DNA of 64,000 nucleotides from Himantopus leucocephalus (Eukaryota; Chordata; Aves; Charadriiformes; Recurvirostridae). Below, one piece after another: positions 17,539-51,565 of this stretch. Each line of letters starts with the position of its first letter. Position 1 is the stretch's first letter. The stretch covers positions 74,861,051 through 74,925,050 of the forward strand of contig RSEF01000004.1 of the NCBI GenBank assembly GCA_003993805.1, read 5' to 3'. Below the pieces are notes generated by a model, which worked only from the letters and a program-made list of their open reading frames with translations, had not been told where the DNA came from and did not search any database. The translations under genes and the position numbers were made by a program.

Positions 17539-17615
17539 GTGCAAGTCCCTCTGGAACGGAGAGGGAAGGGGAAGGANGTGCAAGTCCCTCTGGAACGGAG
17601 AGAGAAGGGGAAGGA
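17539..17615 (+). repeat. 38-bp direct duplication around one N
   Basis: Copies at 17539-17576 and 17578-17615 differ at one base and are separated by the N at 17577. It has the same pattern as the duplications at 16.8 and 20.3 kb and is probably an assembly artefact. Confidence 0.8.
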
Positions 17616-20980: not shown

Positions 20981-21080
20981 NNNNNNNNNNNNNNNNNNNN
21001 NNNNNNNNNNNNNNNNNNNNNNNNNNNNNNNNNNNNNNNNNNNNNNNNNNNNNNNNNNNNNNNNNNNNNNNNNNNNNNNN
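20981..21080. other. assembly gap (100 N)
   Basis: A run of exactly 100 N, so the true size is unknown. The left flank is a CR1 LINE; the right flank is unique-looking sequence. Confidence 0.98.
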
Positions 21081-42322: not shown

Positions 42323-42328
42323 TTTATT
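42323..42328 (-). terminator. polyadenylation signal of minus recombinase-like gene
   Basis: TTTATT on the + strand, which is AATAAA on the minus strand, about 290 bases after the stop codon at 42617. It is the first such signal downstream of the gene. Confidence 0.6.
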
Positions 42329-42616
42329 AACTCACACTATACAAGATAAAAACTCTCTGCAGACTTGCTCTGCCAAGACGGGCAGAGGAAGCCCACACAC
42401 AGCAGGTTTGACACCCCCACCCTCCCTCAACACTACAGGCAGCACAAGCAGCAACTGCGAGAGAACTTCAGATACCATCGCACTGTGAGGTAGAAAATTC
42501 ATTACAGGTGCTAATAGTAAATTACTGCCAAAGACTAGAAACTACACAGTTAAAAGCTGACTCTACCAAAAAGCAGGTAGTTCATTAGCATCAATTTTCC
42601 CCATTGGTCTCCGTGG

Positions 42617-43533
42617 CTATGATCTCTCTGGGATGACACAGGGCCATCTTGCCAGGCGAGTGATGTCTTCCCCTGGATACCCGCAGCGTGCAGCTGTGAT
42701 GGCAGTCCCCAGCCAGAAGGAATGCACACCATACTGCTCCGGGCACAGCCCCAGCAGCCGCAGGGCCCATCGGAGAACAGTCAGGAACTCCTTCTTTGTT
42801 ACAGTAGTATTATCCCAGTGCATAAAGAGGGGCCCTTCCAGGTGCGAACGAACTGTCATGTAGCTCTGGAGGGCCAGAACAGGGCACACCCATGGCTCTC
42901 CAGACAGCCCAAGGGTTATGACATGTCTCTCCTGACCCACAGGAGAGTTAGGCAGACAAATCACTGCTCTCCTCTCCGTCAGCTGGAGGTCACTCAGGTA
43001 CAATAGCTCAGGCTGCTGTACATCATGGTGCTTTGCCACCATCTCTCCTATTCGAAGTGCCCCAAAAAAAGCTACAGTAAATAATGCACGGAAGAGTAAG
43101 CATTCATAATGAGTTATACATACAGACTCCAGAGCTCCTAAAAGAGATCGCAAGACCTCAATTGTTATAGGCAAGTATTTATCCCTCAGGATGCCTGCTC
43201 GACGTTTCAACCCTATCACCATGCAATGGGTTATAGGGTCTACCAGAGGATCAGGGTTACCAGTCAATTTTGATAAATAAGACAGTGCTGCCACATACAT
43301 CAGTGTCTTTGAAGAGGAATAAAGAGATTCTACAGCCAAGAACCCTCTAACCTGCTCCTCTGGAATTGGCCAGACTGCAGGCATTCCCATGCTTTTCCTA
43401 AAGAGAAGGAATTTCTTCAGTCCTTCGAGGTAGGCTTGCCAAAGCCTACTATTCCCTGAGCACTCCAACAACGACAAAGTCTTCAGAGGCCAAGGTCCCA
43501 AAGAGTGTTTCCGAGGACAACTAAACTCCCTTC
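42617..43533 (-). CDS. exon 2 of minus recombinase-like gene
   Basis: The acceptor TCTCTTGTAG ends at 43534. The first two bases complete a Gly codon, then the frame reads REFSCPRKHSLGPWPLK and stays open to TAG at 42617. The homologous exon of the partner gene begins DELGKVPEKHPLGPWPLK in the same phase, and the intron sequence just before it (GCTAATGTGGAT) is also shared. The TTG codon at 43501 is internal and not a start. Confidence 0.85.
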
Positions 43534-44339
43534 CTACAAGAGAAGATCCACATTAGCACAAGTATGCCACTCAGCGCAATAAAGATAGCATTCCTCAGTG
43601 CAATATACCCCTAGACAATGTTCTGCTACTTTATTTAACTCAAGATAATTCACACACATCTACACCAAGAGCTGTTAAAGAGCTAAGATTTTTCAAACAA
43701 GAAACAAGAAGAAACACACCAGGCCCATTTCAGGCAACAGATCTGGTAGCACTCTAGGAATTTACAAGTTTGTGGAATACTAACGGAGAAGACAAGTAAA
43801 AAAAGCAAGTTTAAACCTTATAGTATAGCTTACACAGATTATGACTGCAAAGGGCACACAGCACACTCCCACCAGAAGGCAGCACGTTTCCCAGCCCAGG
43901 AAGGTGAAGTCCCTCGAGGCCTCCAAAAGCTCCAGCCTCACACAAGAACTCGAGCACAACCAAGGAAACGCCGGCCAACGAGAGCCACGGCTACCAGCGA
44001 CCCGCTCGCCCCCCGCCCGCAGCCAGAGGACACCCCCCGGCCACGGCGGGGCAGGCGCCGAGCCGCCACCACCGCACATACTGGCAGCCCCACCACAGAG
44101 CACGGTCCGTACTTACCAGCCGCCGCCGCGCTGCGCTCCCTGCACCGCCAGGAGCCCCCGGGGTGCGCCACCGCCACCACCTCGGTCCTACACGCTGCTC
44201 CTCGGCTGCCATGAGAGAAGGTGGCTGCTTGCCCAGCGAGGCCCAGCTCCAGCCACGCCATGCCCGGCTCCTGGGCTAGCAGCACCAGCATCTCCCAGAA
44301 GGGCGAAACAGCAGGCCCGGCCAGAGGACTACGGGACAT
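42617..44339 (-). CDS. tyrosine recombinase-derived protein, minus copy
   Basis: Two exons, 44339-44117 and 43533-42617, joined in phase 1, give 379 residues. Exon 1 starts at the first ATG after a TATA box and holds SPFWEMLVLLAQEPGMAWL. Exon 2 has a helical SAM-like DNA-binding region (about 104-170) with VWPIPEEQV, then the catalytic fold: FFGALRIGEM with the first catalytic Arg at 235, and YGVHSFWLG near 345. The family's HxxR reads HxxW, the Lys hairpin reads PNSPVGQ, and the chain stops after LARWPCVIPERS without the Tyr nucleophile. The layout resembles the vertebrate DIRS/Ngaro/Crypton-type recombinases (family knowledge); the exact source family is not certain. It is inferred to bind DNA but not to recombine it. 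No second element ORF or terminal repeat is seen, so it is probably a host gene. The strong GTAAGT donor supports the structure. Confidence 0.8.
43534..44116 (-). other. intron of minus recombinase-like gene
   Basis: 583 bases, GTAAGT to TTGTAG. Its 5' half is GC-rich and belongs to the CpG island. Confidence 0.75.
44117..44339 (-). CDS. exon 1 of minus recombinase-like gene
   Basis: 74 codons plus one base. MSRSPLAGPAVSPFWEMLVL starts about 80 bases below the TATA box. The latter half is Ala/Gly/Arg-rich and less conserved. The donor GCTG/GTAAGT parallels GCTG/GTGAGT in the partner. A shorter form ending near EPG would need a poor GC donor and is less likely. Confidence 0.7.
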
Positions 44340-44416
44340 GACCAGAACACCAGCACCGCGCTCGCCCGCCCTGACACAGCACAACTCTTACAGTGAGGCC
44401 CCTTGCCCCCCATGGG

Positions 44417-44427
44417 CCTTTTTATAG
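44417..44427 (-). promoter_or_regulatory. TATA box of minus recombinase-like gene
   Basis: CTATAAAAAGG on the minus strand, about 80 bases above the ATG at 44339. This is consistent with transcription starting near 44390. Confidence 0.7.
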
Positions 44428-44457
44428 CCGCGGAGCCGCTCGCAACGCCCTCCTCCG

Positions 44458-44503
44458 ATTGGGTGCTGGGAGCGGCCGCGGTGATATGGAGCGCTGCCAT
44501 TGG
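44458..44503 (-). promoter_or_regulatory. pair of CCAAT boxes (minus promoter)
   Basis: ATTGG on the + strand at 44458-44462 and 44499-44503, 41 bases apart. These read as direct CCAAT for the minus gene and are likely NF-Y sites. Confidence 0.6.
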
Positions 44504-45005
44504 CTGCTCGCCCGAGGCCGCGCCCCTCCCAGCGCGGCGGCCGGCGGGGAGCGGCGGCGGGTGTGAAGCCGGGTAGCGAGGGGCGAAGCCGGGCCCGGCC
44601 TGCGAGCCGCAGGGCGTGAAGCTTACAGGCGTTTCTCACGCTGCCTCTGCCGCAACCTGAGATAGGGACGGGTTTTCTTGATAAGGTGAAAATGAGCGAG
44701 GAGTACCTGCCGTTACCTACCTATTGTTCTCCTAGCTGAGTCACGCAGCGGAGGCGCACCCGCGGGCACACCCTCTGTCACCGCCGGCTCCTCCTTAGCC
44801 CCCAATTTTGCAGCACAACGAAGGCGATAACGGGCCGTTGTAGCTCCAGGCGGTGAAATCCCATCCTCCGGGGCGTTTCCCGCTCCGGGCCGGTGAGCGG
44901 CCCCCGCGGGGGTGGCAGGGCGGGGGGACGCCGCGGAGGCACCGTCCCTCAGGCACCGGCTCCGGCGGGCGGGGCGGGGCGCAGAGCCTCGCGGCTCGTT
45001 CCGCG

Positions 45006-45051
45006 ATTGGGTAAGAGAGGGGCGGGGGCGCGCGAGAGACGTTCCGATTGG
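45006..45051 (+). promoter_or_regulatory. pair of inverted CCAAT boxes (plus promoter)
   Basis: ATTGG at 45006-45010 and 45047-45051, again 41 bases apart and in the same absolute orientation as the pair at 44.46 kb. The second lies about 20 bases above the TATA box. Confidence 0.6.
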
Positions 45052-45070
45052 TTGGAATTAAGGGCCAGGC

Positions 45071-45080
45071 TATAAAAGGG
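45071..45080 (+). promoter_or_regulatory. TATA box of plus recombinase-like gene
   Basis: TATAAAAGGG, 79 bases above the ATG at 45150. A GCGCCATTTTG sequence, possibly a YY1-type site, lies just before the ATG. Confidence 0.75.
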
Positions 45081-45149
45081 CAGCACGGCACCACCGTTGA
45101 GGAGTTGTTACTTCGCGCTTCGGGCTCTGCGGGCGCCATTTTGTTGGCG

Positions 45150-45315
45150 ATGCAGCGCGGTGCGGTCGAGTTGCCCACTGCCCCTTCACCTTTCTGGGCC
45201 CTGCTGGCGCTACTGCGGCGGGAGCCTGGTATGGGGTGGCTGCCGCGTGGTCTGGATGGCTGCGCTGGATTGTGGGGTCCTAGTGGAGCAGAGGCTGGTA
45301 GTGGGGATGGAGCTG
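45150..45315 (+). CDS. exon 1 of plus recombinase-like gene
   Basis: 55 codons plus one base, MQRGAVELPTAPSPFWALLA at the start. The chosen donor is GCTG/GTGAGT at 45316, the best match to consensus. Weaker phase-1 donors occur at CCTG/GTATGG (45229 region) and GCTG/GTAGTG (45297 region), so a shorter exon 1 is possible. Confidence 0.65.
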
Positions 45316-46690
45316 GTGAGTGTGGCACTGTGGGGTTGGCCAGCTTGTGGTGAGGGAGGTGGGCGGAGGCTTGTCAGGTTCTTCTGTGGGATCTGACCCT
45401 AGTGCTGGAGGACTTCTGGGACCTGTGTGCACAGCTCAGTCTATTGCTAATTTGTGGTGGCTTTGTTGCTCCCAACCCCTTGTGTCCATTGATGGAGGTC
45501 AGGTGTTGCAGAAGCATTGCAGTAGTGTGCTGGGACTGTCACTAGGCTTGATGTGTTGCTTTAAAGAGGAAAAAACACTGGGTTTTTATGTTTGAGTCTT
45601 TAATCCTTTTCCTGTGCTCTGGCTGTTGGAAGGTGTGCAGGGGAGGGTCATATGAATGCATGGGACAGGTGTTTTCAGTGAAGTTCAATCAAAAGCTGAA
45701 GTGTGTTGAAAGGGAGGAAACTTCTGTCTGCTTTACTGTATGTGAGACTGCCTTGTTTGCCATTGCTAATGTGGATTTTCTTCAGCAGATGAACTCGGCA
45801 AGGTTCCTGAGAAACATCCCTTGGGCCCATGGCCCCTGAAGGCTCTGCTGTTACTGGAAGACTCAGGAGATAACCACTTATGGCAGGTCTATCATGAAGG
45901 CCTGAAGAATTTCCTCGCCTTTAGAGAAGGCATGGCTCTGGCTGCAGTCTGGCCAATTCCAGTGGATCAAGTGAGAGAGTTCTTGGTTGTCATGGAGTAC
46001 TGGGATCTGCCTCCCACAAAAATAATAATGTATATGGAAGGACTGTCCTTCATCTCCAGAATGGTGGATCTTCCTGATCCTCTTCAGGATCCTGTTATCT
46101 GTCACATGATATCGAAGTTGAAATATAGGACTGGCCCTTCAAATGATAAATACTCTCCTGTAACTATTGAAGCATTAAGATCTCTCCTGGGGACTCTGGA
46201 ATCTGTGTGTAGCTCTTCTTATGAGTGTGTATTGTTCCGTGCCATGTTTACTGTAGCTTTTTTTGGTGCACTCCGTATAGAAGAGATGGTGGCAAATCAC
46301 CGAAATACAGCACAGGCAGAGCTCCTGTACTTGAGTGACCTCCAGCTGACTGAAGGGAGTGCAAACCTTTGTTTGCATACATCTCACATGAGCCAGGAAA
46401 GGTGTTTGATCCAACTGAGACTATCTAGAGAGATGTGGGTGTGTCCTGTTGAAGCTCTCCATATCTATGTGGCAGCACGGCCACAAGGAGAGGGCCCTCT
46501 CTTTGTGCATGCAGACAGTATGGCTGTAACAAAGAGGGAGTTCCTAACTGTCTTCCGCTGTGCTCTTGGGCTTGCTGGACTTCCTCCAAACCAGTATGGC
46601 ATACATTCCTTCTGGCTGGGGACTGTCGTAACAGCAGTGTCTCATGGGTATTCTGATGAAGCTATTAACAGAATAGCAAGGTGGTGGTGA
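45150..46690 (+). CDS. tyrosine recombinase-derived protein, plus copy
   Basis: Divergent paralogue of the gene at 42617-44339. Exons 45150-45315 and 45786-46690 join in phase 1 to give 356 residues. The ATG at 45150 is the first after the TATA box. Exon 1 has SPFWALLALLRREPGMGWL, matching the partner's SPFW...EPGMxWL. Exon 2 carries the SAM-like region with VWPIPVDQV and the catalytic fold: FFGALRIEEM with catalytic Arg at 219, LYLSDLQLTE, and YGIHSFWLG with His 329. As in the partner, HxxR is HxxW (Trp 332), the Lys hairpin is replaced (HTSHMSQ) and the chain stops at RIARWW, before any Tyr nucleophile. About 60% of aligned exon 2 residues match the partner. Catalysis is very unlikely; retained DNA binding is an inference. 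It is not a processed copy because the intron position is conserved. Confidence 0.8.
45316..45785 (+). other. intron of plus recombinase-like gene
   Basis: 470 bases, GTGAGT to TTCTTCAG. Small open frames inside have no meaning. Confidence 0.7.
45786..46690 (+). CDS. exon 2 of plus recombinase-like gene
   Basis: Starts after TTTTCTTCAG. Two bases finish an Ala codon, then DELGKVPEKHPLGPWPLK. The frame is open for more than 300 codons to TGA at 46688-46690, with no frameshift. The TTG at 45821 is internal. Confidence 0.85.
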
Positions 46691-46965
46691 AGATCCTGAA
46701 GAAGACCTAATTCCATCTATATGTTGGGCTTTCATAGTAAGGTGTATCTTCTGCAATGCAGAAATACTATGCTTTATACAGACTAAACTTCCAGTGCTCT
46801 GTAAAGTTACAGAGAAGGGGAGTAACTAGTACAAGGTGACTTTTCCCACCTGGGATGGTTTTGAGAATGGAGTGTCATGGTTTTAAAACTGCTGTGACTT
46901 ATGGGTCAGTATGCATGCTATTCAGTGTGTTTTTTCTAATTGTATTTTTACTCGTGTAATCTTAT

Positions 46966-46971
46966 ATTAAA
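46966..46971 (+). terminator. polyadenylation signal of plus recombinase-like gene
   Basis: ATTAAA, the commonest variant signal, 276 bases after the stop codon. The 3' UTR length is nearly equal to that of the partner gene. Confidence 0.55.
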
Positions 46972-51465: not shown

Positions 51466-51565
51466 NNNNNNNNNNNNNNNNNNNNNNNNNNNNNNNNNNN
51501 NNNNNNNNNNNNNNNNNNNNNNNNNNNNNNNNNNNNNNNNNNNNNNNNNNNNNNNNNNNNNNNNN
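51466..51565. other. assembly gap (100 N)
   Basis: Exactly 100 N, a placeholder of unknown true length. Confidence 0.98.

Follow-up and report, generated by a model that had tools for sequence, protein, structure and literature searches.

We analysed a 64,000-nt window of Himantopus leucocephalus DNA (C197:74861051-74925050 in a 1.1-Gb assembly), which contains a divergent pair of two-exon genes encoding proteins related to tyrosine recombinases (YRs). The re-derived coding models lie exactly at the coordinates proposed in an earlier note on this DNA, and its protein lengths (379 and 356 residues) and intact frames were correct. The left gene, on the minus strand, comprises a first exon with its coding part at 44117..44339 (ATG at 44339) and a second exon, including the stop, at 42617..43533, which carries the YR core-binding and catalytic domains. 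The right gene, on the plus strand, has the coding part of its first exon at 45150..45315 (ATG at 45150) and its second exon, including the stop, at 45786..46690. A NAGNAG acceptor is located at window positions 45783-45788, and use of the second of the two adjacent sites would yield 355 residues instead of 356. Both introns are in phase 1, with donors GTAAGT (left) and GTGAGT (right), and both first exons contain the motif SPFWxxLxLLxxEPGMxWLxxGL, which agrees with the matching splice phases and common first-exon motif described previously.

The two genes are paralogous. Their exon-2 proteins share 59% identity over 297 aligned codons, close to the value of about 60% given in the note, while the first exons share 46% over 56 aligned codons. 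At the DNA level, the two genes align in inverted orientation with 70% identity over 839 bp. The exon-2 frames represent the two longest N-less stop-free runs in the 64 kb (311 and 306 codons), followed by a CHRNA9 exon of 255 codons.

The YR relationship was established by profile and pairwise searches against recombinases of DIRS-order retrotransposons. A hidden Markov model (HMM) of four element YRs matched the pair in hmmsearch (3.6e-55 and 1.9e-49), and in blastp the DIRS-order YRs aligned over most of exon 2 at 1e-14 to 1e-39, with homology spanning the core-binding and catalytic domains. A joint profile of the pair and the element YRs reached Cre at 1.8e-12, and the predicted model of left exon 2 displayed a Cre/Xer-like fold, confident only with the element YRs in the alignment. 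By homology and predicted fold, the pair belongs to the tyrosine recombinase superfamily, in line with the descent originally suggested. Exon 1 showed no convincing match to the element proteins (best E 0.14).

The element YRs were obtained from a DIRS-type motif scan of genome contigs, which returned seven stretches; L005, L007, L009 and L010 were used for their long YR frames, L006 was dropped with a frame of only 58 aa, and L008 and L011 were dropped as unrelated after inspection of their translations. The same scan of viral contigs returned no stretches, and searches with the pair alignment gave 99 stretches in viral contigs and 25 in genome contigs, none of which was confirmed. In their loci the element YRs are linked to a reverse transcriptase (RT), and L010 exhibits a Ngaro-like layout, with the YR followed by a GDSL/SGNH-like open reading frame (ORF), a match at E 0.00055 that does not reach the curated cut-off. 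The tree compared the pair with these four elements only, which limits its placement among DIRS, Ngaro and PAT. The four elements were found in genome bins of bacteria or symbionts (GTDB representatives), apparently as host contamination. The hosts of two of these bins are Escarpia and Bathymodiolus, and the other two are presumably sponge-associated.

Of the seven catalytic positions listed in PMC10516654 (R, D/E, K, H, R, H/W, Y), R, E, H and W persist in both proteins. The Lys is replaced by Pro or His, the second Arg (Arg-II) by Trp, and the Tyr is absent; the left exon 2 stops soon past the GRW-equivalent. Neither protein thus has an active YR site, as the note had surmised in proposing an apparent loss of catalysis, whereas the element YRs retain Lys, Arg-II and Tyr. 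Both proteins have in common the substitutions Arg to Trp and Gly to Ala (the latter turning GRW into ARW), which suggests, from the aligned residues, that catalysis was lost before the duplication. Charge has shifted as well: over the matched YR region, net charge is +13.6 to +17.2 in the four elements, +4.1 in the left protein and -7.4 in the right. The left core-binding domain is still basic, and that of the right protein has an isoelectric point (pI) of 4.9.

Selection was estimated from the paralogue pair only. The pairwise GY94 model for exon 2 gave a ratio of nonsynonymous to synonymous substitution (omega) of 0.325, with dS 1.06 and dN 0.34; over 353 codons omega was 0.316, and the NG86 estimate was 0.27 (bootstrap 0.18-0.37). 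One neutral copy and one perfectly constrained copy would average an omega of about 0.5. The data reject this value (p 0.0096 and 0.0025), and constraint on both copies is therefore probable, as judged from these codon comparisons. The pair combines an intact ORF, low copy number in one genome search and purifying selection, features of a domesticated gene, and a paralogue omega of about 0.33, well below 1, is consistent with the long maintenance by selection that had been proposed. A very improbable alternative is that one or both genes are decaying pseudogenes that remain open by chance. The faster right branch, the truncated YR end of both proteins and a third copy that is already a broken relic (described below) fit decay. 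However, base shuffling of either exon 2 never left the frame open (0 of 5000), omega is significantly below 0.5, identity at codon positions 1/2/3 is 0.69/0.75/0.54, and splice-site consensus and promoter motifs are in place.

The relic was identified in a single first-look search of the 1.1-Gb genome in which six candidates were scored; three were matches, namely the pair itself and this further copy. It is located on another contig (L004:4895-5199; G000:C129, ~29.53 Mb), is 305 bp long and 76% identical over 325 alignment columns, and covers the last coding part of the right gene and part of its 3' untranslated region (UTR). It is broken by a frameshift and an internal stop, and its end lacks a poly(A) tail. 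K80 distances to the right gene, which allow rough dating, were 0.21 (189 coding sites) and 0.27 (116 UTR sites), and 0.22/0.12/0.30 for codon positions 1/2/3 (63 sites each). The final TGA of the relic is that of the right gene, which dates the truncation of the right protein to before their split.

These data also bear on whether the two genes are recent or lineage-specific retrotransposon insertions, the case that the note named as its refutation. YR descent itself would be compatible with such insertions, yet dS is about 1.1, the intron position and first exon are common to both genes, and only the single relic was found besides them among the six candidates of the first-look search. Furthermore, queries for RT (four), gag (three elements) and hydrolase (one) gave no match at E<=0.1 in 184 kb; all were distant queries, which a degraded vertebrate-type remnant could escape. 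On dS, common intron position and copy number, recent insertion was rejected, and we regard it as scarcely credible. The pair is old. By the same searches, it differs from a DIRS-order retrotransposon, in which gag and RT/RNase H are linked to the YR.

Several points weigh against an interpretation of the pair as constrained genes of YR descent. Pfam gave no family at E<=1 for either exon-2 frame, PHROG gave no match for these frames, and PDB sequence searches, run with the left exon as well as the profile of the pair, returned no recombinase, only pectate lyase (E 1.4 and 0.31). The Pfam Phage_integrase cut-off was passed by just one of the four element YRs. The whole-chain template-modelling (TM) score of the left exon-2 model to Cre is only ~0.5, and an AlphaFold2 model from the pair alone was poor, with a predicted local distance difference test (pLDDT) value of 36.4; since a good model needs the added element YRs, fold and homology are not independent. 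The exon joins of both genes were placed by splice-site consensus alone. Regarding selection, dS of about 1.1 is near saturation, and the longer protein branch of the right gene (0.66, against 0.28 for the left), together with its acidic protein, indicates weaker constraint on that gene. Had the two copies arisen by independent insertion, some of the constraint would belong to the element itself.

Several known genes and elements were compared with the pair. The reported vertebrate YR domestications derive from Cryptons; Crypton-derived YR genes include KCTD1, KIAA1958, ZMYM2/3/4, QRICH1 and WOC, with DUF3504 as the corresponding family (PMC3212892). As described there, a transposon YR became a host gene and most catalytic residues were lost, as in our pair; Crypton YRs are thus a known source of such domains (PMC3212892). 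Here, however, the YR forms most of each protein and the genes are a divergent pair, and, unlike in genes from a Crypton DNA transposon, the exons match no Pfam family at E<=1, DUF3504 included. Cryptons were judged via Pfam and not via YR sequences, and DIRS-order YRs match most of the exon. A Crypton source such as that of ZMYM2, QRICH1 or KCTD1 is therefore very improbable, slightly more so than pseudogene decay. The DIRS-order elements L005, L007, L009 and L010 share homology with the pair across both YR domains and differ in keeping Lys, Arg-II and Tyr and in their link to RT, while the pair stands alone. LAP2alpha and ZNF451-L2a, named as the human DIRS-derived domains in PMC5753468, resemble the pair in being domesticated from DIRS-order elements as a single large exon under purifying selection, with overall dN/dS of 0.38 and 0.16, respectively (PMC4495291). 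In contrast to the pair, they originate from ORF1 (GAG) rather than the YR, are fused to host genes and are mammal-specific (PMC4495291).

Birds and mammals are described as lacking DIRS-order elements (PMC9210276), chicken yielded no DIRS element (PMC5006616), DIRS elements are reported as undetected in birds (PMC5753468), and the accessible text of PMC3266345 has no match for bird or Gallus. In human DNA, 37 DIRS and 28 Ngaro pre-amniote protein fossils are counted, which trace the order back to tetrapod ancestors (PMC9004415), so a donor in an amniote ancestor is plausible. Among the titles and abstract beginnings listed by searches of the open literature, none names a YR gene of vertebrates that came from a DIRS-order element; such a gene may well have been annotated without a name.

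The claim of one CpG island, TATA boxes and poly(A) signals also held, as all of these were located. The CpG island and divergent promoter region common to both genes extends over approximately 43750..45250, with an observed/expected (o/e) CpG ratio of 0.63-0.97 in 500-bp windows, compared with 0.05-0.32 elsewhere in 42-48 kb and 0.45 in one island-edge window. The two ATGs lie 811 bp apart. The left gene has a TATA box at 44421..44426 (minus strand) and two CCAAT boxes upstream of it at 44458..44503 (ATTGG on the plus strand at 44458 and 44499). The right gene has a TATA box at 45071..45076 (plus strand), with two CCAAT boxes upstream at 45006..45051 (ATTGG on the plus strand at 45006 and 45047). 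Spacing within the CCAAT pair is 41 bp in both promoters; a promoter duplication is not claimed from this, as the orientation relative to the genes differs. Poly(A) signals are AATAAA at 42323..42328 (minus strand, left gene) and ATTAAA at 46966..46971 (plus strand, right gene).

The pair is flanked by other genes. CHRNA9 exons occur at 25-28 kb on the minus strand (best PDB match alpha-9, E 2.8e-72), and a Ras-family gene with a Pfam Ras match lies ~20 kb beyond the pair. We take the latter to be RHOH and an exon ~7 kb before the window to be RBM47, and frames beyond RHOH are tentatively assumed to be N4BP2. The printed gene order of a turkey chromosome-4 interval is RBM47, CHRNA9, RHOH, N4BP2, without a gene between CHRNA9 and RHOH, an absence of little weight in a list of named genes only (PMC7460020). 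In the window, 100-N gaps are present at 20981-21080 and 51466-51565. A single N at 17577 has duplicated sequence on both flanks, and similar sites occur ~9-10 kb before the window; these resemble assembly joins.

Taken together, it is quite probable that the pair represents a DIRS-order YR turned host gene, which lost catalysis and then underwent inverted duplication. One YR reading frame of a DIRS/Ngaro-type element, located between CHRNA9 and RHOH, would have become a host gene when splicing joined it to a short first exon with a CpG-island promoter; this gene would then have lost Lys, Arg-II and Tyr, and the subsequent inverted duplication would have produced the divergent pair. We infer this order of events, as well as transcription and orthologues of the pair. 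Both proteins would be pseudo-recombinases that do not cut DNA, and one promoter region may drive both, with the products assembling into homo- or hetero-oligomers that serve as a binding module. Contact with DNA may fall to the left protein, whose core-binding domain is still basic, and the right protein, which is acidic, would act mainly via protein contacts. The drop in charge in the left protein and its reversal in the right favour such a pair working through protein contacts, possibly as a heteromer in which only the left partner is likely to touch DNA, although we put this forward tentatively.

The main rival to this protein-contact mechanism is that both proteins are DNA-binding regulators, the dead fold recognising specific sites, for example residual DIRS-order ends, and repressing or organising chromatin. 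Precedents for a YR fold that serves as a binding protein without recombination are MrpR, the SPbeta master repressor (PMC10516654), and yeast Ndc10 (known from a reference-list title), both found among the structural matches. These are of phage or fungal and separate origin, and MrpR keeps the Lys and Tyr that both proteins here have lost (PMC10516654). Matched-region charges of about +4 and -7, against +14 to +17 in the element YRs, and the pI of 4.9 of the right core-binding domain also argue against DNA binding by both proteins, which we consider rather unlikely. Somewhat less likely again is the most far-reaching reading, in which the two co-expressed pseudo-recombinases, present across sauropsids, would form an obligate heteromer that is essential for chromatin or the germline in a lineage now without the elements, and would be the first known vertebrate host genes made from a DIRS-order recombinase.

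The two genes appear to be old descendants of the DNA-cutting enzyme of a jumping gene, and both seem to have been maintained by selection. A conserved pair derived from a DIRS-order recombinase would represent a vestige of these elements co-opted as host genes, and would add a route of recombinase exaptation beside Cryptons and DDE transposases. Two diverged copies under one promoter region would also allow a clean test of the role left to a recombinase fold once its chemistry is lost.
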